From Cohaesibacter sp. ES.047 (lineage in GTDB: Bacteria; Pseudomonadota; Alphaproteobacteria; Rhizobiales; Cohaesibacteraceae), in assembly GCF_900215505.1 (NCBI RefSeq), contig NZ_LT907844.1, forward strand, positions 4,294,001 through 4,358,000: 64,000 nucleotides of DNA, in the 5' to 3' direction. Position numbers and translations under genes: made by a program. The notes under the pieces are model-generated. The model worked only from the letters and a program-made list of their open reading frames with translations. It was not told where the DNA came from and did no database searches. Shown here piece after piece: positions 26,568-52,966 of this stretch. How positions within the stretch are numbered: the first letter of the stretch is position 1; each line of letters starts with the position of its first letter.

Positions 26568-28199
26568 TCAAACCAGTCGGCTCTGCTCAACCGCTGCCCC
26601 GATAAAGGAGGCAAACAGCGGATGCGGAGCAAACGGCCGTGACTTCAGTTCCGGATGGTACTGCACGGCGATGAACCATGGATGATCAGCGATTTCGACG
26701 GTTTCGGGCAAGACGCCATCTGGCGATAGACCCGCAAAGGATAGGCCGCAATCTTCCAGCTTTTCCTTATAGTCGATATTGACCTCGTAGCGATGGCGAT
26801 GCCGCTCTTGGATAATGGTCTCGCCATAGATTTCTGCGATTTTGGAGCCCGGCGTCAGGTGCGCTTCATAGGCACCAAGGCGCATGGTTCCGCCCAGATC
26901 CCCGTCTTCCTTGCGCACTTCCTTGGCATTGCCCTTGCTCCATTCGGTCATCAGGCCGACGACATTGTGTCCGCTGGCACCAAATTCCGAGGAGCTCGCA
27001 TCACCGATACCGGCAAGATTCCGCGCCGCTTCGATAACCGCCATCTGCATCCCGAAGCAGATCCCGAAATAGGGAATCTTGTTCTCACGCGCATATTTCA
27101 CCGCAGCGACCTTGCCCTCGGCTCCACGCTCACCAAAGCCGCCCGGCACCAGAATGCCATGAACGCCCTCAAGCCGCGCGGTCGGATCATTGCCACCCTC
27201 GAACAGATCACTTTCGATCCAGTCGAGATTGACCTTGACCTTGTTGGCGATGCCGCCATGGGTCAGAGCCTCGATCAGCGACTTGTAGGCATCCAGCAAC
27301 GAGGTATATTTCCCAACCACTGCGATCGTGACCTCCCCTTCGGGATTGCTCACGCGATCAAGAATGGTGTGCCAGCGTTCGAAATTGGGTTTGGGAGCCC
27401 CATCGATGCCAAACGCCGCCAAAACCTCGGTATCAAGCCCTTCGGCATGATAGGCCAGCGGCACTTCATAGATATTGCCCACATCAAGCGCCTGAATGAC
27501 GGCCTCTGGCCGCACATTGCAAAACAGCGACAGCTTGCGCCGCTCCGCCTCGGGAATGGGCCGGTCGCAGCGCACCATCAGGATATTGGGCTGAATACCA
27601 ATGGACCGCAGTTCCTTGACGGAGTGCTGTGTCGGCTTGGTCTTGAGCTCGCCTGCACTGGGAATATAGGGAACAAGAGTGAGGTGGATATAGATCGCTT
27701 GTCCGCGAGGCAATTCGTTTCCAAGCTGACGAATGGCCTCGAAGAAAGGCGTTGCCTCAATGTCACCGACGGTACCGCCGATTTCACACAAGACAAAGTC
27801 ATAGTCGTCATTGCCATCAAGAATGAAGGCCTTGATCTCGTCCGTGACATGGGGAATCACCTGCACGGTCCCGCCCAGATAGTCGCCACGTCGTTCCTTG
27901 GTGATAATGTTCTGATAGATCTGACCGGTCGTTATATTGTCCTTCTTGTTCGAAGGACGTCCGGTAAATCGCTCATAATGCCCCAGATCCAAGTCCGTTT
28001 CCGCACCATCATCGGTTACGAAGCATTCCCCATGCTGGTAGGGAGACATCGTGCCGGGATCGACATTGAGATAGGGATCGAGTTTGCGCAGTCTAACTGA
28101 ATAGCCGCGCGCCTGTAGAGCCGCCCCAAGAGCCGCAGACGCAAGCCCTTTGCCAAGCGAAGACACCACACCGCCAGTGATAAAAATATATCGCGCCAT
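26568..28199 (-). CDS. pyrG: CTP synthase
   Basis: Makes CTP from UTP, ATP and glutamine. The synthase domain (residues 1-267) opens with [20 protein letters not shown], the nucleotide-binding start, and carries [20 protein letters not shown]. The glutaminase domain has the catalytic nucleophile in [17 protein letters not shown] and the His-Pro-Glu triad end in [10 protein letters not shown]. 543 aa is normal. It lies between secG and the VOC/kdsA pair on the minus strand, the usual rhizobial neighbourhood. Confidence 0.98.
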
Positions 28200-41101: not shown

Positions 41102-44020
41102 CTAGTTGAACGGCACACCAAACCCGCCCCTTGGCCTCAGAACACATCGCGTCGGCGAGACCTGAACCATTTCTGGCATCAGGCAGACACAGCGATTCCC
41201 ACGCCGTATCGTGGTGGTCCGGTCGCATGCCGGAGCCGTCTCGCGCGATCGTTCCCGACGGCTCGATCCATAGAGGGGTTCTGAGGGGATCACACAGCCT
41301 CGGCCCGGGATCAGGGCCGCATCGGGATTGTTGCACGCACAGGCACGCGCCGAAGTCTTGTACATGTAGGGATAGCGACACTCGCACCGACCGCCATAGA
41401 CGAGCGCGGTCTCACGATCACAGCGTGGGGAGCGCGATGGACTGGGCGTGATTGGTGCCTTGTCAATACAGCCCCTGCCATTGACGAGCTTTTGCCCCCT
41501 TGGGCAGCGACAGGCGCGGCTGGAAATGCGTTCCATGCCCGGATACCGGCAGAAGCATGAGCGCCCCTTGCGTTCGGCAGTTGCCGGATCACATTGCGCT
41601 CGCTGATCGGTAAAGACACACCCCTGACCGGCAACAAAGTCGGCACCGCGACGACAGTCACAGCGTCCCGGCGATATCTTGCGCATACCGTCATAGCGAC
41701 ACGCACAACCATTGCCGCGCTGTACAGCAGTTTGCCCATCGCAGGCGGCTTTGGTGTCTGGTTGTGCCGGGATAACAAGCGGCTCATCATCCGGGTCAGA
41801 AGCGCCGGGTGCCTGCCCTCTTGGCGAAAACGGCATTGCGGCAAGCTGCGTTGTCGAACAGGAGGCGGAGTTCGCATCCGCTTGAGGCAGGTTCAGACGG
41901 GTCAACACCCTGTCACCCATATCGCCGGTTGCCTTCATACCCAGTTGAGCCTGAAGCAGGCGAAGGCCCCGTTTGGTTTTCGGCCCAACACGACCATCAA
42001 CGCCGCCTGAGCGGATACCCGCCGCTTCGAGAGAAAGCTGGGCCAAGGCGACCTTTTGCCGAAACACGGACTTGTATCCAAGCAATGCGCAATTGTGAAA
42101 CTGGTCCGCTCTGATTTGGGCAGGAACACGAAGCCGCATCGTCAATGATCTTGATTGCCCCACATCCAGAGTAAAAGCCTCATGCAGGCACATCAGGAAG
42201 TTGGACATCGGTTGCGAACACCGCCAGTCGCGACTGCCAACCAGCGCCATTTCGGTCGCATGAGGTCGCTGGAACTCATCGGTGATAACCATCGGTCCCG
42301 AATATCGTTTATCGCCCTTGTTGGTCAGCGTCAGCCTGAATTCACATCGAAAACTGCGCGAACTGCGATCAGCCCGACAGTCGCCAACCTGCTCCTTGCT
42401 CAATTCCAGTCCCGTCTGAGACAAACGCAGAGGCTTGCCCGGCAACTGGATATAGGACGATGGCTCGGGCTCTGCAGCTTCGGGCTCAACGGGATTTTTG
42501 CGCAGATCGGCCATACCGGCGCACCCATAGATCTCCACATCCCCGATATGGCCAGTTTCAACCGTGCTGGGATATTGGCCATCAAAATCGATGAAATAGG
42601 ATTTCCATGGAGGCCGTGTCTCATCCGAAATCGCAAGCAAGGACTGTGCCTGCGCACCAGAGACCCTCAGCGCGCCGCCCTGCCGCAATTTTTCTGCAAG
42701 ACGCGGGTCATTGCGCAAATTCTCTCCCGTCGTCCAAAGCGTCTCCGAACAGCGATAGCGGACCAGCTTGCCGTGATCATCATACCCGGGGCCAAGCGCA
42801 ACACCGCCCGTGCCATTGCGTTTGCGCGCGGCAAACCCGACGGCATAGGCTGTGGGACTTTCGCGCCAGCTGCCGTCACGCGTCTTTTTGTATCTCAGGA
42901 CCTGCGCCTGCCTCGGGCGCGCAAGTCGGGAAAAATCATAAGCCCCGACCATCATACCGCGCTGCGCAAGGATAATCGATCCATCCGGCCCGAATGCGAT
43001 GTCCGAAATCTCCATCTGGCGGCGGGTATCAGGCAAAACAAGTTCCTGACGGGCATCCAGCTTGAAGTTGCCGTCATCAGCATCGATACCGACCGACCAG
43101 ACAGACGGCCCTTCAGCCACGGAATAGTAAAGCCGTCCCTTATTCACCGCGACAGCCCAGACCCGCCGCCCCTCCTTGGCAAAATGCCAGCTTGACGGGT
43201 CCTCTACGTCAAAGGACGGCACGGTGATGTCGAGACGATTGCGCGTATCAAAGTGGATCGGGCGCATACCAGCCACAGTGCGGCCGATCGATCCGTGATC
43301 GAAACTTTCAAGAATGTGGCCTTCCATATCAAGCCGGAAGATCATGCCCGTGTCGCGATCGGAGACAAACAACTGGCGCGACTTGGAGTCAAAAACGATA
43401 TTCCCCAGCGCCGGGCCGGAGTTGGGCATATTGTCGAGCTTGATGGAGGCAAAGCGACTGATCTGGCCGGTCGCGCCGTCTACTTTCCAAATGCTGCCCG
43501 GTCCATTGTCATTGACCGATCCGAACAGGCCAGCCATGAATGCCGCATCCGACCGTCCTGCATAGAGCTTGTCTGGCACGCCATCTCCGTTCTGATCACG
43601 TCCGACGATGGGCAGACCATAAGCGGAGGTCGCAGCAAGATAGAGATTGGGACGCTCTGCGTCGTCAAAAGCCATGCCGAACACCTGCCCGATATCCTTG
43701 GCCAATAAGGAACGGTAGGGCTGTCGTTTGATTTCCCGGCCATCAAAACCCGCTTCAAAATCATCAATAGCGAAAAAGCGCACCGATGGCCCATTGAGAT
43801 CAATGAACAGGCGCGTCGCCTCGGCTGGATCAGTTGCATTCCCAGAGCCGACCCCAGAGCCGAAGAGCTTGCTGCCGGAAAACCCGCTCATCACCATCGT
43901 TGGCCCATGAAGCACTGCACCGGGATCTCCTCGTCGCTCCGCTTGCGAAAGAGCCGGTCCGGCGCTCAAGCCTATAAAGACGAGCAAAAGGCATACAGCC
44001 TGATAAAGTCGACAAGTCAT
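41102..44020 (-). CDS. Large secreted beta-propeller/peptidoglycan-binding/cysteine-rich protein
   Basis: A 972-aa exported protein I do not recognise as a named family. Residues 1-27 are a signal peptide ending ALSQA. Residues about 40-430 show repeated strand patterns of an NHL- or SMP-30-like propeller (IVFDSKSRQLFVSDRDTGMI, ISDIAFGPDGSIILAQRG), with an Asp-rich DQNGDGVPD loop that resembles calcium-binding repeats. Residues about 535-635 look like a secreted beta-sandwich (FRLTLTNKGDKRYSGPMVI). Residues about 655-712 form a peptidoglycan-binding_1 domain (GIRSGGVDGRVGPKTKRGL). From 760 to the end are four tandem Cys-rich units of about 50 aa (CxCRYxxM, six Cys per full unit). The ATG at 44020 has GGAG 5 nt upstream. 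It diverges from the curli operon. Confidence 0.75.
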   Translation of the reverse strand: MTCRLYQAVCLLLVFIGLSAGPALSQAERRGDPGAVLHGPTMVMSGFSGSKLFGSGVGSGNATDPAEATRLFIDLNGPSVRFFAIDDFEAGFDGREIKRQPYRSLLAKDIGQVFGMAFDDAERPNLYLAATSAYGLPIVGRDQNGDGVPDKLYAGRSDAAFMAGLFGSVNDNGPGSIWKVDGATGQISRFASIKLDNMPNSGPALGNIVFDSKSRQLFVSDRDTGMIFRLDMEGHILESFDHGSIGRTVAGMRPIHFDTRNRLDITVPSFDVEDPSSWHFAKEGRRVWAVAVNKGRLYYSVAEGPSVWSVGIDADDGNFKLDARQELVLPDTRRQMEISDIAFGPDGSIILAQRGMMVGAYDFSRLARPRQAQVLRYKKTRDGSWRESPTAYAVGFAARKRNGTGGVALGPGYDDHGKLVRYRCSETLWTTGENLRNDPRLAEKLRQGGALRVSGAQAQSLLAISDETRPPWKSYFIDFDGQYPSTVETGHIGDVEIYGCAGMADLRKNPVEPEAAEPEPSSYIQLPGKPLRLSQTGLELSKEQVGDCRADRSSRSFRCEFRLTLTNKGDKRYSGPMVITDEFQRPHATEMALVGSRDWRCSQPMSNFLMCLHEAFTLDVGQSRSLTMRLRVPAQIRADQFHNCALLGYKSVFRQKVALAQLSLEAAGIRSGGVDGRVGPKTKRGLRLLQAQLGMKATGDMGDRVLTRLNLPQADANSASCSTTQLAAMPFSPRGQAPGASDPDDEPLVIPAQPDTKAACDGQTAVQRGNGCACRYDGMRKISPGRCDCRRGADFVAGQGCVFTDQRAQCDPATAERKGRSCFCRYPGMERISSRACRCPRGQKLVNGRGCIDKAPITPSPSRSPRCDRETALVYGGRCECRYPYMYKTSARACACNNPDAALIPGRGCVIPSEPLYGSSRRERSRETAPACDRTTTIRRGNRCVCLMPEMVQVSPTRCVLRPRGGFGVPFN

Positions 44021-44344
44021 GTTCGCTCCGCTGATGATCACGTCGCACCGCGCCACCGGATCCCTTGCCAATGAAGAGACTGAATGAACAGGGCCAATAA
44101 TCAGCCCCGCTGAAAAACATCGTAGGAACAAATTTTGTCACAATTGGGCTGCGAGCAAAAGAACAGCCGCAAAATTGGCCAATCCCGGCCAAGATGACCT
44201 TTCCTAGGCCCCCATCACCGACAGGTGCGACCACACGCAAGAGCCCCGCAGGCGTCAAAATAAGGCATTTTCAAGCCCGGCCCAAGAAATTCTGTGGGTA
44301 TGGGATAATTACCAATGGATGTGACAAATAAGCAATACACCACC

Positions 44345-44360
44345 TGGTTTCATTAAACCA
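44345..44360. promoter_or_regulatory. Inverted repeat TGGTTT-N4-AAACCA
   Basis: Perfect 6-bp arms around CATT in the curli upstream region. It shares the half-site TGGTT/AACCA with the repeat at 44703-44716, which suggests one regulator might use both. Confidence 0.4.
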
Positions 44361-44702
44361 AAGTGAATGAATTTCTAAGACCACAACAAAGCACAGGAGA
44401 ATAAGCCGCATAGATTCAAAGTGTTAGACATCCATACCCAAAACCGGACATTCACCCGATTGGCTCTAAGACGTTGATGGTATCGGATCCGACAATTCTG
44501 GACCAGATTGTATCAAAACCCGCTTCCGTTAAGAAAACAGCAGGATGACTTGGCTTGCGGGTGCCAGACAGAAGGTAAGTTACATCAATAATTCAATGGC
44601 TTAGAAATTTACAGCGCAAAATCCAGATTGCCACCGATAAGAATATCAGCGCTTAACCATTCTCCCCGGACTCAATTGACAGGCAAATATCAATACTATA
44701 CT

Positions 44703-44716
44703 AACCATTTTTGGTT
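44703..44716. promoter_or_regulatory. Inverted repeat AACCA-N4-TGGTT
   Basis: Perfect 5-bp arms around TTTT, about 100 bp upstream of the csgF start, in operator-like position. Confidence 0.4.
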
Positions 44717-44818
44717 GTGCTAAATAGCTATACAACCTTATAGAACGGCAATTGCAACCGCTGCAGACGCGTTGATTGCAGGCTGTTGGGGAACAAGCCT
44801 GACGAAGGAGAGTTTGAC

Positions 44819-45262
44819 GTGAGAATATTGCTTGGCTTTATCACCTTGTTGGTGAGCATTCATGTAGCCCAATCATCCGAATTGAACTACACGCCCGTGA
44901 ACCCGTCCTTCGGCGGCAATCCATTGAACTCCACCCATCTGCTCAATCTTGCAAACGCGCAAAAGACGGCGACGGCAACGGATGCGAATAGCAATTCTGG
45001 AAGTGCTTATTCATCATCAACCGACGGCGATACGTCGGCGGAACTGTTTGTACGCCAGCTTGAGGGCCGGTTGCTGTCCGCATTGGCCAGCCAGGTGACC
45101 GAAGCCATCTTCGGTGAAAACCCGCAAGAGAGCGGCACCATCACGTTCGGCGAAACCGAAATCACCTTTGAGCAGGGAACCGGTTCAATAATCCTGACGA
45201 TTACCGACTTCACCGACGGCACCGTCACGAACATCGAAGTTCCGCAGTTGCAAACAAACTAA
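44819..45262 (+). CDS. csgF: Curli assembly protein CsgF
   Basis: A 147-aa exported protein. After the signal peptide (ILLGFITLLVSIHVAQS), the mature N-terminus reads YTPVNPSFGGNPLNSTHLLNLANAQ, the CsgF segment that inserts into the CsgG pore. The C-terminus is a beta-rich region (TITFGETEITFEQGTGSIIL, then TITDFTDGTVTNIEVP). CsgF couples secretion to nucleation on the cell surface in enterobacteria. I chose the GTG at 44819: AAGGAG lies 8 nt upstream and the signal peptide then begins at once (MRILLGF). csgG follows 15 nt after the stop. Confidence 0.92.
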   Translation: MRILLGFITLLVSIHVAQSSELNYTPVNPSFGGNPLNSTHLLNLANAQKTATATDANSNSGSAYSSSTDGDTSAELFVRQLEGRLLSALASQVTEAIFGENPQESGTITFGETEITFEQGTGSIILTITDFTDGTVTNIEVPQLQTN

Positions 45263-45277
45263 GCTCAGGTTGACATC

Positions 45278-46342
45278 ATGTATAACAGCACATCAGATCA
45301 GCCTGCGAGCAGGCGCTTTACGTTGCGAAACTTGGCGATTTCAGTGATCGTTTCATCCGCATTCCTGGCCGGTTGCACCTCGGATCAAATGCTTTACACA
45401 GAAGAACCGATCGTAGCACGTGTCACAAACGCCAATCTCAAGCTGCGTGAATTGCCGCCACCGAAAAAACGTATCCCGGTCGCGGTCTACGATTTTGCCG
45501 ATCAGACCGGCCAATACAGGGAAGCCGCCACCTATCAGCAGCTTTCGCGTGCGGTAACACAAGGCGGTGCGTCCATTCTCATCAAGGCTCTTCAGGATGC
45601 CGGCAATCGCAAGTGGTTCGCCGTCATGGAGCGGAACAAGCTTCCGAACCTTCTTAAGGAACGCCAGATCGTCACCGAAATGCGGCGCGTCTATCGGGGC
45701 GAGAGATCTGTCAATGCACGGGTTCTTCCGCCGCTCAAGCACGCAGCGATCATTATCGAAGGCGGCATCGTCGGCTACAACCAGAATGTTACAACAGGTG
45801 GGATCGGTGCCCGCTACCTTGGCATTGGAGCCGATACCAAATATTCGCGCGATGAAATCACCGTTGCCCTGCGTGCCGTATCCACGAAAACCGGTGAGGT
45901 GCTCGCCTCGGTCACAGCGCGCAAGACGGTCGTATCCGTCGCATTGCAAAGTGGCGCTTTCCGTTTTATCAAGCTGGATGAATTGCTCGAAGCGGAAGCA
46001 GGCATAACCAACAACGAGCCAAGGCAGCTCGCGGTTGAAGCCGCCGTCGAAAAGGCCGTCGAGTCTATGATCATTGAAGGTGCCGAACTCCATGTTTGGG
46101 CGTTTGCGGATCCATCTGCTGGGCGAGAGTATATTCAAGACTACAGACAACAGCAGTTCGATGGTATCGAACAGCAGCAGCGCATGGTCAAGGCGACCCC
46201 AGATACCAAGCAGGCGACCACCTTGGCGGCAACCATTCCGCGGCTCTTCAGAGCAAAGTCAAAATCTACAAGTAAAAATGTAAAATCAACAACAAGAAAA
46301 CTCCCTCCTCCGCCATCACAGACAGAAAAACCGGTCGGATAG
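45278..46342 (+). CDS. csgG: Curli secretion channel CsgG (lipoprotein)
   Basis: The outer-membrane lipoprotein pore for curlin export. The lipobox is AFLAGC with Cys33 as the predicted lipidated residue. Family segments follow: RIPVAVYDFADQTGQYREA, ILIKALQDAGNRKWFAVMERN, IIEGGIVGYNQNVTTGGIGARYLGIG (cut here) and the transmembrane-hairpin region with DEITVALRAVSTKTGEVLAS. 354 aa is about 75 longer than E. coli CsgG (277); the extra is a C-terminal, Gln- then Lys/Pro-rich tail from about 285. The gene follows csgF and is closed by a terminator, so csgFG form their own operon. Confidence 0.94.
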   Translation: MYNSTSDQPASRRFTLRNLAISVIVSSAFLAGCTSDQMLYTEEPIVARVTNANLKLRELPPPKKRIPVAVYDFADQTGQYREAATYQQLSRAVTQGGASILIKALQDAGNRKWFAVMERNKLPNLLKERQIVTEMRRVYRGERSVNARVLPPLKHAAIIIEGGIVGYNQNVTTGGIGARYLGIGADTKYSRDEITVALRAVSTKTGEVLASVTARKTVVSVALQSGAFRFIKLDELLEAEAGITNNEPRQLAVEAAVEKAVESMIIEGAELHVWAFADPSAGREYIQDYRQQQFDGIEQQQRMVKATPDTKQATTLAATIPRLFRAKSKSTSKNVKSTTRKLPPPPSQTEKPVG

Positions 46343-46657
46343 GGAGTAATACTAAAACAATTTTACATAAAAAGGCTCTCTACGAAACGTACGGGAGCCT
46401 TTTTTATATTTCAGATCGCTTCTTAACAATTACTAACATTTACCATTAAATTGTATTTATATGAATTTTGATAAAAGTACGTAGCTTTCTTATTGACTTC
46501 CGAAGTTAACAAAGGGTAAATAGGTTGCATTGTCGTAAATCTCTTTTTAAAGTTGTATTCCTCATGGGCAATTTGGACTGAGAGGAGCAGCAGGAGAAGG
46601 CGACGTAAAGACTTGACCCCTCGACCAATTGATTTTTAAAAACTCGGGAGACGTATA
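46343..46657. promoter_or_regulatory. Terminator plus AT-rich promoter region before the first curlin gene
   Basis: 315 bp. The left end holds the csgG terminator. The rest is strongly AT-rich and must contain the promoter for the curlin genes; no -35/-10 could be fixed with confidence. Confidence 0.5.
46369..46404 (+). terminator. Intrinsic terminator after csgG
   Basis: 10-bp stem AAAAAGGCTC/GAGCCTTTTT with a 16-nt loop that itself can pair further, followed by a T-run, 26 bp past csgG. Confidence 0.88.
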
Positions 46658-47992
46658 ATGAAAAATTTCCGCTTGGCCCTTCTTGCAGCCACCGCTGGTA
46701 TCGCACTTGCCACCGCAGCCATCGCTGCTGAAAACAACGATGCAACCGTCGATCAGACGGGTGCCAACAACTCGGCCTATGTTAATCAGGCTTCAGGCTC
46801 AAATCACCGTGCATATGTCACTCAGACGAATGACAACGACAGCAGCTCGAACACCGTAGAAATCGATCAGAGCAACTACTGGCAGGCCGTTTTCAGCCTG
46901 GATCAGAATTCCGAAGCAGGCTGGGGCACCAACACCGCAATCATCGAACAGGGTGGCGGATCAGCCAACGCCATTCGCAATCTCGACCAGACGGTCCAGA
47001 TGGGTGGCGACAACAACGCAACCATCACCCAGGATGGATATGCCAACGACATCAACAAAATCGAACAGACCAACACGGGCTTGCTGCTTGACAACACCAT
47101 CACAGCAAACATCGTGGGCCAGAGAAACGGTTCGACTTATGTGGGTGGCGTTCGAGAAGTCCTCACCGGCAAGGCAGAGGCCACTGGCGTGACCAATGGT
47201 GAACTGATCCAGAACGGCGCGGGCAACACCATCGACCTGTCTATCAACGGCGCTCAGAATGATTTTGGCGTAACCCAGAACGGCACCAACATCCTCTCTG
47301 CCTTGGATATAACTGGTGATCGCAACCAGCTCGGCATCAAACAGACCTCAGGAACAGCTTCGGTGTTTGGCATTCCTTTCCCGACGCCCAACACTCTGAT
47401 CATCAGCGCGATTGACGGCGATGACAACAACATTGGCGTCAAGCAGGATGGTGGGAACATTGCCAGCATCGGCCTAGTCTCTGACAGCCAGAATAACCGG
47501 ATCGGCCTCACACAGGACGGCAACAACTTGGCAGAGATCGACATCGTGGCTGGCGCCAACAACGATATCACGTCCTACCAGCAAGGCGAAAACATCCTCG
47601 ATGTTTCAGTTGAAGGCAGTGATAACGGCCTCAACACCGAGCAGTTCGGCTCTTTCAACACGATGCTTGTTACCATTGTTGGCGATAACAACGGCACAGG
47701 CCTCTTCACGAGCATCAGCGCCAGCGATGCTTTCACCGTTGCCAGCGCTAAGGGCCTGACGTCCGGTTCTCTGGTTCAGGACGGCAACAACAACTCAGCA
47801 ACGCTGAACATTGGCAACGACCTTTCCGACAACAGCAATCAGTTCGCCATGCTTCAGGATGGTAACAACAACGACGTGGTTGCATCTGTTGACGGTAGCG
47901 ACAACCAGCTCGCGATCGCACAGGTTGGCAATGGAAACTACAGCAGCGTCACTCAGGTTGGCAACGGCAACTCCGTTGGCATCAGCCAGTAA
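46658..47992 (+). CDS. Curlin-repeat amyloid subunit, 444 aa (CsgA/CsgB-like)
   Basis: A secreted functional-amyloid candidate. The signal peptide (FRLALLAATAGIALATAAIA) is followed by the N-terminal ENNDATVDQTGANNSAYVNQ, canonical curlin units. Throughout, hydrophobic strands alternate between Q-centred turns (IGLTQDGNNLAEIDI) and Gly-Asp-Asn turns (ITGDRNQLGI, VGDNNGTG), ending QVGNGNSVGISQ. Asn, Gln and Gly are high; Cys is absent. 444 aa is roughly three times E. coli CsgA (151). CGGGAG precedes the ATG at 46658. Major versus nucleator role cannot be told from sequence. Confidence 0.88.
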   Translation: MKNFRLALLAATAGIALATAAIAAENNDATVDQTGANNSAYVNQASGSNHRAYVTQTNDNDSSSNTVEIDQSNYWQAVFSLDQNSEAGWGTNTAIIEQGGGSANAIRNLDQTVQMGGDNNATITQDGYANDINKIEQTNTGLLLDNTITANIVGQRNGSTYVGGVREVLTGKAEATGVTNGELIQNGAGNTIDLSINGAQNDFGVTQNGTNILSALDITGDRNQLGIKQTSGTASVFGIPFPTPNTLIISAIDGDDNNIGVKQDGGNIASIGLVSDSQNNRIGLTQDGNNLAEIDIVAGANNDITSYQQGENILDVSVEGSDNGLNTEQFGSFNTMLVTIVGDNNGTGLFTSISASDAFTVASAKGLTSGSLVQDGNNNSATLNIGNDLSDNSNQFAMLQDGNNNDVVASVDGSDNQLAIAQVGNGNYSSVTQVGNGNSVGISQ

Positions 47993-48025
47993 TCATCAGA
48001 ACCCACTGATGACGTTGTAACAATC

Positions 48026-48051
48026 GGCCGGGTGGCATATGTCACCCGGCC
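48026..48051 (+). other. Hairpin between the first two curlin genes
   Basis: Perfect 9-bp GC-rich stem GGCCGGGTG/CACCCGGCC with an 8-nt loop and no T-run, 34 bp after the stop. It may stabilise the upstream message or slow transcription into the second gene. Confidence 0.55.
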
Positions 48052-48099
48052 ATCATCCGTACCCGGCCCACTCACACACGTTGCTTGCGCGAGGACACC

Positions 48100-49638
48100 A
48101 TGACCTATATGAGATCCCCCTTTCTTTCGACAGCATTTCTGTCACTCATAGCGACGAGCGCAGCCCGAGCCGACGACAATGAAGTGTATATTGGGCAGAC
48201 TGGTAACACCAACACGGTCATCATTGACCAGCTCGGCAGCGGCAACCTCGTCGGATCCAATGACGACTCGATCTTTGTCTCGCAAGTCGGCAGCTACAAC
48301 ACGCTCTCTGTTGATCAAACAGGATATGACAATGAAGCAGGAGCCGCACCAAGCGCCGGCGCCTTGAACCTATTGGGCATCTATCAGAACGGCGACCGCA
48401 ACGAGGCCACGATTTCCCAGAAAAACGACAACCCTCTGGGAACCAACCTGATCGGCGCGATTTCGCAGAATTCGGCAACCCTTCGTGCCACAACCGCCAA
48501 CACGCTTTCCATCACGCAGACCGACATCTCCGCGGACGGCACGACAGGCACTGGCAATGGTCAGGGCAATCATGTCATTGGAGAAATTCTTCAGGTCAAC
48601 ACCGGCGGCGCATCCAACAGCCTGACCATCTCTCAATTTGACGGCACGACGAGTGGCGGAGAAGGCAACCGCGTCCAGACCGTGATTCAGCAAGGCAGTG
48701 ACAACCTCGCGATCATCAATCAGGAAGAAGAAGGCAACGAAGTTACCGAATTACGCCAACTTGGAGCCAGCAACGAGGCAACAATCTATCAGCAAGACGG
48801 CGTCAACAATCTGGTCAACAGCTTAACACAGGACGGTGACAACAACCGCGCCCGAGCTGCGCTCAATGGCTCCCGCAACCTGATCTTCTCGATCCTGCAA
48901 TCCAATGCCCTCGTGGGTTCCATTGGCAATCTCATGACAGTCACCCTCAGCGGTGACGACAATGGCGGCGACGGCATGGGTGGGCTGGGCCAATTCACGC
49001 GCCCCATTACCCAGGCCTTGCAAGTCGCTCAGGGCGAACTCAATCAGTTTGGCGATGAGAATGTGCTAAACTTCGTCACGTCCGGTACATCCTCGATGAA
49101 CCTGTTCGGCTTTGTGCAAGATGGCGATGGCAACGCACTGAGCGGAACCGTGGACGGCGTCGAGAACGAAGTTGCTGCGCTGGAAATCGGAGATGGCAAC
49201 CGCATCGATTTCACGCAGGATGGCGACCAGAATACGATTGCCATTTCCTATCGCGGAGACAACAACGCGATTTACGCCAAACAGGAGGGTGACGAGAATA
49301 CGCTCGACATCTCGTTTGACGGTGGCATCGCTCCGATCACCCGCAGCAATCAGAACAACGACCCGGCAGTCGGTGGGTTCGGCGACACAGTGGCTGCCTT
49401 TGCAGGCTCGCTTATGCCTGGCGATGCGGTTCAGATTGGCGACCTCAATCTGGCCAAGATCTCCATCACCGCAGGCAACCAGAACAAGATCGCCTTTGCA
49501 CAGGTCGGTCAGAGCAACACCATCACGGGCGCAACGACGGGGCACCAGAATCAGGTTCTGATCACGCAGACCGGCTCACTCAACGAAGCGAGCTACACCC
49601 AGAATGGCAACTTCAATTCCCTTGTCATAATCCAGTAG
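48100..49638 (+). CDS. Curlin-repeat amyloid subunit, 512 aa
   Basis: The largest curlin-like protein of the locus. The signal peptide (LSTAFLSLIATSAARA) precedes EVYIGQTGNTNTVIIDQLGSGN. The repeat pattern x-Q-x-G-x-x-N continues to the end (ITQTGSLNEASYTQNGNFN, then LVIIQ), interrupted by turns such as GTVDGVENEV and SYRGDNNAIYAKQEGDEN. Low Cys and high Asn/Gln/Gly match amyloid curlins. I chose the ATG at 48100, with GAGG 5 nt upstream. It is transcribed in the same direction as the first curlin gene, 107 bp downstream with the hairpin between. Confidence 0.87.
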   Translation: MTYMRSPFLSTAFLSLIATSAARADDNEVYIGQTGNTNTVIIDQLGSGNLVGSNDDSIFVSQVGSYNTLSVDQTGYDNEAGAAPSAGALNLLGIYQNGDRNEATISQKNDNPLGTNLIGAISQNSATLRATTANTLSITQTDISADGTTGTGNGQGNHVIGEILQVNTGGASNSLTISQFDGTTSGGEGNRVQTVIQQGSDNLAIINQEEEGNEVTELRQLGASNEATIYQQDGVNNLVNSLTQDGDNNRARAALNGSRNLIFSILQSNALVGSIGNLMTVTLSGDDNGGDGMGGLGQFTRPITQALQVAQGELNQFGDENVLNFVTSGTSSMNLFGFVQDGDGNALSGTVDGVENEVAALEIGDGNRIDFTQDGDQNTIAISYRGDNNAIYAKQEGDENTLDISFDGGIAPITRSNQNNDPAVGGFGDTVAAFAGSLMPGDAVQIGDLNLAKISITAGNQNKIAFAQVGQSNTITGATTGHQNQVLITQTGSLNEASYTQNGNFNSLVIIQ

Positions 49639-49704
49639 TTTTGGTTGCAATGAGAGGAATTAAATCTTAAAGTTGTTTTGATAAACCTACAAGCCATGAG
49701 CGCA

Positions 49705-49724
49705 ATGAGCGAAAGATCGCTCAT
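49705..49724 (+). other. Hairpin between second and third curlin genes
   Basis: Perfect 8-bp stem ATGAGCGA/TCGCTCAT with a 4-nt loop, in a 270-bp gap that otherwise holds nothing visible. No T-run follows, so not a terminator by the usual rule. Confidence 0.45.
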
Positions 49725-49908
49725 GCGGGGTGGCCATTCCGGTTCTGGTTGATCGAGCCCCTTTAAGCTGCAGAAACCGGGGTACCAACGGAATGGCAAC
49801 AACAACATGACGCCGGTTTGCGAGGATTTGCAGCCACCGCTCGGAAACGGAGGCAGGAACGCCCCCAATCCTGACAGGTGTCCTAGCCATATAGACGGAG
49901 AAGATCCC

Positions 49909-50655
49909 ATGTTTGAAACACGACACATTCGATCCGGCAGCCAAACTCTTCCCCGCCGTGCCGGTATCCTTGGCGCACTCACTCTTTGTGCCTTTATGAC
50001 TTTCCCCGCGTCCGCGGGGGAAAAAAACGTGCTCATTCTCGAACAGCAAGGCACCAGAAACAGTGTGACCGTTGATCAGACGAACGCGTCGCAAAGTCAG
50101 GTTGGCGGCGTTGAGATAATTGAGGGAGCCGCGTTTTCCGACACTGAATTCAATGTGCTCAGTCTCGATCTTCAGCCCAACACAGCTGCGGAAAATCCAA
50201 TCCTCCAACTGGGGGCAGACAACGTTGCCGACATTACCGTTGACGGCGTTGGTGGCGCTGTCTTCCTGCAGCAAGGCGCAAACATCAACGATGGCAACAA
50301 CACCGCAACGATCGACATCAACACAACCGGCGATTCCTTGGCTGCAATCCTTCAGGCTGGCAGCAACAACAACGCCGGGCTCACTGTGATCGGCAACACG
50401 ACAGAAGGTCGCATCCTGCAGCTCGGAGACAACAACGACGCCCAGCTTCAGGTCGGGCTTGATGGCCTACCGGCAAATGGCGCTCAGGCAACCGTGACAC
50501 AGGATGGAAACAACAACACCACCAATGTGCAGGTCGTCGGCATTTCAAATGGCCAATACAGCTACACCGTTCAGGCAAACGGCACCACGACGAGCGTTCC
50601 GGTCACCATCCAGACCAACGGTGCGTCGGTCAGCGTGACGCAAACCCAGTTCTAG
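49909..50655 (+). CDS. Curlin-repeat amyloid subunit, 248 aa
   Basis: The shortest of the three. A basic N-terminus and hydrophobic signal (AGILGALTLCAFMTFPASA) precede VLILEQQGTRNSVTVDQT. Repeats such as LAAILQAGSNNNAGLTVIGN and ILQLGDNNDAQLQVG carry the Q-G-N pattern, and the protein ends QTNGASVSVTQTQF. A GGAG lies about 8 nt before the ATG at 49909. The CsgH-like gene follows 23 nt after the stop, so the two are co-transcribed. It could be a nucleator of CsgB type, but nothing in the sequence decides this. Confidence 0.85.
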   Translation: MFETRHIRSGSQTLPRRAGILGALTLCAFMTFPASAGEKNVLILEQQGTRNSVTVDQTNASQSQVGGVEIIEGAAFSDTEFNVLSLDLQPNTAAENPILQLGADNVADITVDGVGGAVFLQQGANINDGNNTATIDINTTGDSLAAILQAGSNNNAGLTVIGNTTEGRILQLGDNNDAQLQVGLDGLPANGAQATVTQDGNNNTTNVQVVGISNGQYSYTVQANGTTTSVPVTIQTNGASVSVTQTQF

Positions 50656-50678
50656 GGTCAAATTCGGAGTTGGCTTTC

Positions 50679-51110
50679 ATGAAAAATTCTGGTTCCCGGC
50701 TCCGAATGCTCTATGCCCTGATGATCAGCCTGTTTGCCCATGGCACCGCCAACGCCGACGAAGCCACAGGTGAAATCCGCATTGTCAGGCAGGGAGAACA
50801 GCTCATCGTAAAGGATGTTTTCACCGCCAAAGCCGCTGGCATTTACAAAACCAGTCTGCAGGTTTCCAAAAATGGACTGTCCGGTCAAATCTCATCGAGC
50901 CAGAATAGGCAAATGCAAGCAAAGGCCGGGGAAATCTGCGAAGGAAACCGCATCGCCATGAAAGTTCAGACCGGAGATCAGGTGGAGGTGGAACTAATCA
51001 TACAGTTTGAGGGAACAGAGTTCGTTCATACCGAGCGCACCCTGAAAATCCAGACCGATGGACTGAAGCCCTCACTCTACGAGACAAACGACAAATCCAT
51101 TCGATTGTGA
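50679..51110 (+). CDS. csgH: CsgH-like periplasmic curli chaperone/inhibitor
   Basis: A 143-aa exported protein. After the signal peptide (LYALMISLFAHGTANA) the mature part has the immunoglobulin-like strand layout of CsgH: GEQLIVKDVFTAKAAGIYKT, then LQVSKNGLSGQISSSQNRQ and GDQVEVELIIQFEG. CsgH is the alphaproteobacterial functional equivalent of enterobacterial CsgC and prevents early amyloid formation in the periplasm. GGAG lies 9 nt before the ATG at 50679, chosen over a TTG at 50670. It is 23 nt after the third curlin gene. The family call is based on recalled sequence and context. Confidence 0.75.
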   Translation: MKNSGSRLRMLYALMISLFAHGTANADEATGEIRIVRQGEQLIVKDVFTAKAAGIYKTSLQVSKNGLSGQISSSQNRQMQAKAGEICEGNRIAMKVQTGDQVEVELIIQFEGTEFVHTERTLKIQTDGLKPSLYETNDKSIRL

Positions 51111-51135
51111 AACAACACGTAAATTGGTGCAAAAG

Positions 51136-51900
51136 ATGCTTTCTCCTGCCTGGCTGATCACCACGATCTCGCGCTCTATTCCGCGCGTCCGGTTCTTCAT
51201 CCTATCCCTGCTTCTGGGACTGATCCACGCCTCAAGCGCTCAAGCGCAATCAACCAATGCGATTGCACAGGCATTCAAAGGCCAATGGGTGACCTATGAT
51301 CGCTCCTTTGCCGCCGATACCGGCCTCTGCACGTTGACCTTCTCTGCGACACGGAAAGGCGAGATTTACCCCATTTCGCAGAGCAATTGCACAGGTGAGA
51401 TCACCTCGATTGTCGGCTGGTCCATCGTCAAAAACCAGCTTGTCTTTGTAGATCAGGATAACAAGCCGCTGGCCAAAGTCGGCGGCAATCAGGGGCGCCT
51501 GAGCGGCACCATGACACAAAACAACAAACCTGTGATCTTCGAAAATGCAAAAATCGCAAAGAAGATCAACGCTGCGCGTGAAAGCATCTCGTGCGCCTAC
51601 GTCGGCTACAGCCAGATCTGCGCCAAGCCGCAGGAATTTTCACCGCCACCGGTCAGCCCCGGCGCTGAAACCCCAATCAAAATCCTGGTCAATCTCAACG
51701 CCAGAGTGGAGCCACGGAACGACGCAGAGGCTGTCGCGACACTCAAACCGCAATCCTGCGCACAAGCATTGACATGCTCACGGGCATCAGACGGCCTCTG
51801 GTGCAAGATCAAGCATGAGAACAAACAGCTCTGGATCAAGAAGCAGGCTGTTCGGCTGAAAAAGTACCCGATCATAACCTTCCAGAATGGCTGTTCCTGA
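51136..51900 (+). CDS. Secreted Inh-like plus SH3-domain protein of the curli locus
   Basis: A 254-aa exported protein not previously known to me as a curli gene. Residues 1-38 form a signal peptide (FFILSLLLGLIHASSAQA). Residues about 46-138 resemble the AprI/Inh metalloprotease-inhibitor and Omp19-like barrel: GQWVTYDRSF, a Cys pair (GLCTLTFSA and QSNCTGEI), GWSIVKNQLVFVDQDNKPLA, and GRLSGTMTQNNKPVIF. A Cys-containing linker leads to an SH3b-type domain at about 182-240 (VNLNARVEPRNDAEAVATL, then DGLWCKIK). The ATG at 51136 starts 25 nt after csgH. A protective or assembly role at the fibre is inference; the fold is read from spacing only. Confidence 0.6.
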   Translation: MLSPAWLITTISRSIPRVRFFILSLLLGLIHASSAQAQSTNAIAQAFKGQWVTYDRSFAADTGLCTLTFSATRKGEIYPISQSNCTGEITSIVGWSIVKNQLVFVDQDNKPLAKVGGNQGRLSGTMTQNNKPVIFENAKIAKKINAARESISCAYVGYSQICAKPQEFSPPPVSPGAETPIKILVNLNARVEPRNDAEAVATLKPQSCAQALTCSRASDGLWCKIKHENKQLWIKKQAVRLKKYPIITFQNGCS

Positions 51901-52255: not shown

Positions 52256-52966
52256 ATGCTGACAAGAAAACAGCACGAACTACTTATGTTCATCAATGAA
52301 CGCATCAAGGAATCCGGTGTTCCGCCTTCCTTTGATGAAATGAAACTGGCGCTCGATCTTCGCTCCAAATCTGGCATTCACCGCCTGATTACGGCTCTTG
52401 AGGAACGAGGCTTCATCCGTCGCCTCCCCAACCGCGCCCGCGCGCTGGAGATCCTCAAGCTGCCGGAAGCCAGTCTGCCCACCCTCAACGTGGCGGGACG
52501 CGGGTTTTCTCCCAGCGTGGTCGAAGGCGGTCTTGGCAAGAAACCACCTCAACCGATCAGTCCAGAACCAAAAGAAGAAAGCACCAGCATGTCGGTGCCC
52601 GTCATGGGGCGCATTGCTGCCGGCGTTCCCATCTCGGCGATCCAGAACCAGTCTCACACGATTTCAGTACCGATCGAGATGCTGCGTGGTGGCGAGCATT
52701 TCGCGCTTGAAGTGCGTGGCGACTCGATGATCGAAGCAGGCATATTGGATGGCGACACGGTCTTGATCAAGAAATCCGATGATGCCGTGTCCGGTGATAT
52801 CGTTGTTGCGCTGGTTGATGATGAGGAAGCAACGCTCAAGCGCCTGCGCAAGAAAGGTGCCTCCGTCGCTCTGGAAGCAGCCAACCCTGCTTACGAAACG
52901 CGCATTTTCGGGCCCGACCGGGTTCGTGTTCAAGGCAAGTTGATTGGGCTTCTGCGCCAATATTAA
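52256..52966 (+). CDS. lexA: SOS repressor LexA
   Basis: Represses SOS genes until RecA promotes its self-cleavage. Residues 1-65 form the winged helix ([39 protein letters not shown]). A long linker leads to the protease part: cleavage site Ala-Gly in RIAAGVPI, the catalytic Ser in [14 protein letters not shown] and the catalytic Lys in EEATLKRLR. 236 aa with a longer linker is usual for alphaproteobacteria. GGAG lies 7-8 nt before the ATG at 52256, and a LexA box lies upstream. Confidence 0.97.

Follow-up and report, generated by a model that had tools for sequence, protein, structure and literature searches.

Which genes make up a curli locus that has csgF, csgG, and csgH but no recognizable csgE, and what might help its long curlins on their way out of the cell? 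The question is raised by a 64,000-nt stretch of the Cohaesibacter sp. ES.047 genome (NZ_LT907844.1, forward-strand positions 4,294,001 to 4,358,000; “the window” in what follows), in which a co-directional + strand block of seven genes, at 44786-51900, encodes CsgF, CsgG, three curlins (A, B, and C), a CsgH-like protein, and a protein combining an Inh-like with an SH3-like region, designated Inh-SH3 here. From its sequence, the block is predicted to be a CsgE-less alphaproteobacterial curli (type VIII secretion) operon, ordered csgF-csgG-curlin A-B-C-csgH-Inh-SH3: a cluster of known type, with Inh-SH3 as an apparently undescribed, lineage-restricted accessory gene.

According to passages of Dueholm et al. 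(2012, PMC3521004), Alphaproteobacteria are without csgC, csgD, and csgE, and many have csgH beside csgA/B. The csgH operons described there share with the present block the curlins, csgH, csgG/csgF in part, and the absence of the other three genes, but Inh-SH3 does not appear in those passages, and no description of it in a curli context was found in them or among the titles, abstract openings, and term counts of open PMC papers. The lack of csgC, csgD, and csgE and the presence of csgH were thus known already; what is apparently new is the accessory gene. Its interest lies in a puzzle raised in passages of PMC4389571, the export without CsgE of curlins several-fold larger than Escherichia coli CsgA: conserved, linked to the operon, apparently periplasmic, and with an inhibitor-like fold, Inh-SH3 is a concrete candidate for a part in it. 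The Inh fold may also be used here apart from its classical protease partners.

The curli block and its missing parts

A first-pass annotation of the window had listed csgF, csgG, csgH, three curlins, Inh-SH3, and a large propeller-like protein (PROP). All are at the places it gave, with families now identified from Pfam and NCBIfam (for the large protein, PG_binding_1 only), although the “nine-part” system it proposed names only eight parts. Its lengths of 972 and 254 aa for PROP and Inh-SH3 fit internal ATG starts, counted by eye, in open reading frames (ORFs) of 1009 and 258 aa that begin with TTG.

The csgF ORF (44786..45262, +; likely start a GTG at 44819, aligning with the starts of several relatives) scores 98.5 bits with PF10614 and matches solved CsgF with E 1.5e-5. 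Next is csgG (45278..46342, +), for the outer-membrane curlin export pore, with 202.7 bits for PF03783, E 3e-51 to solved CsgG 3x2r, and no other match to its family in the whole home genome. Curlin A (46658..47992, +; 444 aa) and curlin B (48085..49638, +; 517 aa) are strongly acidic, with nine and 17 Q-x-G-x-x-N repeats; curlin C (49807..50655, +; a 282-aa ORF) has five and a non-repeat C-terminus. The curlin repeat family PF07012 is above its cut-off in all three (72.7, 74.5, and 22.1 bits), and together PF10614, PF03783, and PF07012 supply the families by which a curli, or type VIII secretion, locus is recognized. The block is completed by csgH (50670..51110, +), for a predicted periplasmic amyloid inhibitor of the CsgC/CsgH kind, and by Inh-SH3 (51124..51900, +), identified by PF02974, an AlphaFold model, Foldseek, and its linkage.

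The CsgH assignment comes from the family rather than from the window protein alone, whose NF041112 score of 33.3 bits is just below the curated cut-off of 35. NF041112 is matched by 13/13 members from the genus at E<=0.01, and a profile of these 13 matches both solved CsgC (2xsk, E 4.7e-7) and solved CsgH (2n59, E 1.4e-5), the likeness expected of a CsgC/CsgH-type protein. Positive charge is reported in passages of PMC4838910 to be important in CsgA amyloid inhibition by CsgC/CsgH; the basic CsgH expected from this was not found, the 13 cores being roughly neutral (net -5 to +3).

The home genome is a single contig, 99.98% complete, and has no CsgE match over the cut-off: the best two candidates reach 15 and 12.6 bits, short of the cut-off of 25, which the E. 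coli control exceeds. This is the outcome of the genome-wide search for csgE that the first-pass annotation had proposed. The NCBIfam CsgC model, run on the window CsgH protein only, scores 23.4 there against a cut-off of 75. CsgD belongs to the LuxR-type family, which is too general for assignment by homology. Since Alphaproteobacteria are reported to be without csgE (passages of PMC3521004), its absence is to be expected in this class; the first-pass claim that the locus is unlike the enterobacterial one is borne out, yet the difference it points to (no csgC, csgD, or csgE, a csgH, and long curlins) was published there in 2012.

Set against csgBAC/csgDEFG of E. coli, the block shares CsgG, CsgF, the curlin repeats, and an inhibitor with the CsgC fold; it differs in having no CsgE over the cut-off, in the additional Inh-SH3, in curlins of 444, 517, and 282 aa vs. 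151 aa for CsgA, and in that none of these is assigned as CsgA or CsgB. By description, the only basis of the comparison, Pseudovibrio FO-BEG1 and JE062 are also similar, with csgF and csgG beside three curlin-repeat genes; csgH and Inh-SH3 are unmentioned in the passages of that paper (PMC3806328).

Curlin number varies within the genus, with three to seven in-operon curlin ORFs per locus (L114-L126) and curlin B and C homologs of near-constant length; the two overlapping ORFs of L122 are possibly pieces of a single broken curlin. The home genome has a fourth curlin, a 207-aa ORF with four repeats, outside the window and far from the operon (G000:C1:4789777-4790400; L161:9778-10401, minus strand). 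Curlins of this four-repeat kind (169-181 aa) lie between curlins B and C in 12/14 csgF-bearing genomes, and one is also displaced in G356.

Linkage and distribution of Inh-SH3

Inh-SH3 is, with high confidence, a component of the curli operon in this lineage. The family sample comprised 20 genomes, 18 of them from one genus, in which 13 csgF loci besides the one in the window were mapped, along with two PROP loci without csgF. CsgF and Inh-SH3 occur in an identical set of 14/20, and in all 14 csgF-bearing loci csgH is directly followed by Inh-SH3; these include L118, with an intact csgH, and L125 and L126, where csgH was recognized by NF041112. Inh-SH3 is absent from 6/6 family genomes without CsgF, although two of these absences weigh less because the genomes are incomplete (G354, 64%; G365, 87%). 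G365, from another genus, carries two curlin-like ORFs and one CsgG-like ORF on a single contig, with no CsgF match; no curlin match was found in the other five.

What lies downstream of Inh-SH3 is variable: seven loci have the lexA side there, six a gene on the minus strand, 303-324 aa long and of LysR type in the only one scanned (L117), and one has cutC. Three of the flanking genes were identified in all. In the window the ORF at 52256, 3' of the block, is presumably lexA; this label, like cysH, cysI, DUF2849, comEC, and gltX for other window genes, is a putative one given from the sequence.

Beyond the family, a profile built from all 14 Inh-SH3 sequences was run on larger collections, scoring at most nine (class) or six (order) first-look candidates per genome. 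Among 289 genomes of the class it matched, at E<=1e-4, the home genome alone and none of the other 288; among 397 of the order, at E<=0.001, it matched 20, the 14 known full-length proteins and six partial ones. Two of the six partial-match genomes (G377, G418) were mapped, and there are no curli genes around the matches. From 72,556 plasmid records, also at E<=0.001, the sole match was on pAU20a of Aureimonas sp. AU20 (NZ_CP006368.1), with 34.4% identity over 95% of the length. The annotated order there is csgF, csgG, four hypothetical proteins, csgH, and an “SH3 domain-containing protein”. By phmmer, the first hypothetical protein matches curlins A and B near-equally (8e-17 and 1.5e-17), the second is best matched by curlin B, the third by a 169-aa curlin of a sister species, and the fourth by curlin C. 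The whole block is thus colinear with that of the window, csgH and Inh-SH3 included; it differs in having four in-block curlins rather than three, in genes for a sigma-70 family and an anti-sigma factor upstream, and in that no PROP was found.

With co-occurrence in the family and the same place on the Aureimonas plasmid, the link of Inh-SH3 to curli, which the first-pass annotation had based on position, now goes beyond it. A chance passenger next to csgH would fit the fact that, pAU20a apart, every full-length case is in one genus. That explanation is nonetheless very improbable: linkage to csgH persists beside different flanking genes, and the same position is kept on a plasmid of another family, at an intergeneric identity of ~34-36% between pAU20a and the home genus. 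Inh-SH3 is accordingly read as a lineage-restricted accessory part of the curli block.

Structure and possible role of Inh-SH3

The Inh family PF02974 reaches 25.9 bits in the window protein (cut-off 25) and is matched by 14/14 relatives at E<=0.01, whereas SH3_4 (17.4 vs. 24.1) and SH3_3 (16 vs. 27) stay below their cut-offs. An AlphaFold model built on a 14-row alignment (pLDDT 82.5) runs from a signal-like helix through eight strands of Inh-like structure and a helix plus linker to an SH3-like region; the layout is an apparent signal peptide, an Inh (I38-like) beta-barrel, a proline-rich linker, an SH3-like domain, and eight conserved cysteines, the latter kept in 15/15 mature proteins including that of AU20. 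Foldseek puts this model closest, among PDB entries, to the protease inhibitor U-Omp19 (7mhw, E 4.6e-6, the sole match below 0.001); the next matches include a marine MP inhibitor (6iy4, 2.0e-3) and Erwinia Inh (1smp, 1.9e-2), and among the SH3b matches is a lysostaphin-peptidoglycan complex (5leo, E 0.16).

The 20-residue spacing of C69-C89 is that of Cys85-Cys105 in U-Omp19, which gives the predicted structure both the barrel and the cysteine pair of an Inh domain, and the conserved tryptophan of the I38 family (passages of PMC9486555) probably corresponds to W55, some 13 residues past the assumed cleavage site. With the I38 inhibitors Erwinia Inh, APRin, and U-Omp19, then, Inh-SH3 shares the barrel, the N-terminal tryptophan, and (U-Omp19) the cysteine spacing; it differs in the added SH3-like domain and linker, in having curli rather than a protease as operon partner, and in being without the long disordered N-terminus of U-Omp19. 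A serralysin-type protease partner was considered and rejected: PF08548, the one peptidase family scanned, is found in 6/14 genomes with Inh-SH3, in 3/6 without it, and not in the home genome, and so shows no association over the 20.

Charge suggests that Inh-SH3 could bind curlins. It is basic in 15/15 (net +3 to +17, isoelectric point 8.5-9.8), with the Inh-SH3 and CsgH charges taken from mature-protein cuts (one row, L115, about six residues early), and across the 13 genus loci mapped the curlin ORFs are acidic, with net charges of -4 to -46. Where CsgG is lacking, curlins are broken down in the periplasm; large ones are difficult to reconcile with the CsgE-CsgG cage model of E. coli; and CsgG secretes even without CsgE (all from passages of PMC4389571).

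A scheme can be drawn from these points, in which curlins would enter the periplasm through Sec and CsgH would delay amyloid nucleation. Inh-SH3 would be secreted to the periplasm and docked on the cell wall by its SH3 part, where its Inh barrel, together with the conserved N-terminal tail, might retain the large acidic curlins or protect them against proteases of the periplasm until export; CsgG would then pass them without CsgE, and CsgF couple fiber growth to the pore. Taken as a whole, a CsgE-less operon in which Inh-SH3 holds or shields curlins before export is the explanation moderately favored here. The specific activity of a protease-shield or holdase is put forward more tentatively, as less likely than not.

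Several points weigh against this explanation. Ten of the 11 curli loci mapped beyond the genus are without Inh-SH3: six in genomes of the class, order, and family (L055-L058, L066, L166), and four on plasmids of Bosea, Azospirillum, Sphingomonas, and Limimaricola, drawn from 53 plasmid records with CsgG-like matches. (The contig of L066 is 5.6 kb long and L166 starts at a contig end, with only genes within view counted; seven more CsgG-family loci, L060-L065 and L067, in which no curlin or CsgF was seen, were left out of the curli-locus count.) Because these ten, the G365 locus among them, lack it, Inh-SH3 does not generally take the place of CsgE. Its 14 carrier genomes all belong to one genus and are mutually non-independent, for which reason no p-value is given. 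The curlins of AU20 are acidic to a lesser degree (net -16 to +1), values that like those for the window rest on a crude mature-protein cut, and wall binding could explain the basic SH3 part equally well. Inh-SH3 has no long disordered region before the barrel; since the N-terminal disordered domain of U-Omp19 keeps full inhibitor activity on its own, according to the published abstract, protease inhibition cannot be assumed for a protein without that domain.

A closer link to the missing gene would make Inh-SH3 a stand-in for CsgE, a wall-docked adaptor at the periplasmic entrance of CsgG, where it would feed or gate curlins. No CsgE match exceeds the cut-off in a complete genome, Inh-SH3 alone in the block has no csg counterpart, and a basic protein facing acidic curlins would suit the part; but no CsgE chain is in its sequence match or among the 50 fold matches listed, CsgE is missing broadly in Alphaproteobacteria whereas Inh-SH3 is restricted, and CsgG secretion activity exists without CsgE (passages of PMC4389571), all of which makes this unlikely. 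A wider proposal, a new class of curli helper replacing CsgE for oversized acidic curlins and assuming some of the electrostatic role of CsgC/CsgH, is doubtful; if true, it would explain export, in one CsgE-less lineage, of curlins too large for the CsgE-CsgG cage.

Alternatively, Inh-SH3 might act outside the periplasm, as an extracellular or surface protease inhibitor or a wall link, protecting mature fibers or anchoring them. The apparent signal peptide, eight conserved cysteines, Inh fold, and last place in the block would all suit such a protein, but no lipobox or outer-membrane anchor is seen by eye in the alignment, and binding of the wall by SH3, if real, would retain it in the periplasm; this too seems improbable.

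PROP, the upstream region, and other curli loci

PROP (41102-44131, -), which the first-pass annotation had counted as part of the system, is divergently transcribed from csgF. Its one Pfam match is PG_binding_1, at residues 692-746. The “propeller” label is weakly supported: many Foldseek matches of its AlphaFold model are propeller proteins, but there is no Pfam propeller family, and since the model is poor (pLDDT 58.6) these matches are no more than a hint. The home genome has two part-length paralogs, at G000:C1:27287-28375 (residues 570-952) and G000:C1:377832-379733 (residues 141-743), both matching PG_binding_1, one of them below cut-off.

That an eight- or nine-part system includes this 972-aa propeller/peptidoglycan-binding protein is suggested by its place as divergent neighbor of csgF in 5/14 csgF-bearing genomes of the genus. 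Among the 20 family genomes, however, PROP occurs in seven, five with CsgF and two (G349, G353) without a CsgF match; nine have CsgF alone, and four neither. In 7/7 genus genomes that have it, PROP adjoins DUF2849-cysI (in opposite orientation in G353); at the G349 locus cysI-DUF2849-PROP, with PROP split into two ORFs, is followed by a TauE-family gene and lexA, uninterrupted by csg genes. PROP is lacking in all 11 curli loci outside the genus, and the plasmid search gave no Aureimonas match; the partial paralogs at 27287 and 377832 also speak against a curli part. Relatives were found in 8/289 class genomes including the home genome (best two candidates per genome scored), and a genome-collection scan with the single PROP sequence yielded one confirmed relative, in a Sulfitobacter metagenome-assembled genome (L068); there are no curli genes around the mapped relatives (L050-L054, L068), a set that leaves out weak C-terminal matches in G117, G222, and G205. 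With neither co-occurrence nor conserved csg linkage, PROP does not pass the check set by the first-pass annotation itself and was rejected as a curli part: it is quite likely not a component of the operon, and a system that includes it is most unlikely. It is read as a mere neighbor of the cluster, travelling with cysI-DUF2849, and a false lead is removed.

A candidate promoter region for csgF (44676..44737, +; coordinates set by hand) contains TTGACA, TATACT, and an eye-picked GGTTGT/ACAACC inverted repeat. TTGAC upstream of csgF is invariant in 14/14 genomes. GGTTGT/ACAACC has 27 occurrences in 14 x 400 bp vs. ~4.5 expected from the loci, a count that the AT-rich background may inflate, and is possibly a site for a curli regulator; none was found upstream of the pAU20a csgF, nor ahead of the displaced curlin genes in G000 and G352. 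A promoter and terminator scan gave counts close to those for shuffled sequences.

Three other loci are of interest in their own right. In G365 (L166:130-2562), of the same family but another genus, the two curlin-like ORFs have the CsgG-like ORF on the opposite strand, which by sequence may represent a different arrangement of curli genes, the second in the family. On pAU20a, the sigma-70 family and anti-sigma factor genes upstream of csgF (L173:8913-10233) are a candidate for regulation in place of CsgD. On the plasmid of Limimaricola, the gene directly after csgG (L177:8905-9420) is for an “invasion associated locus B family” protein, possibly another lineage-specific curli helper.

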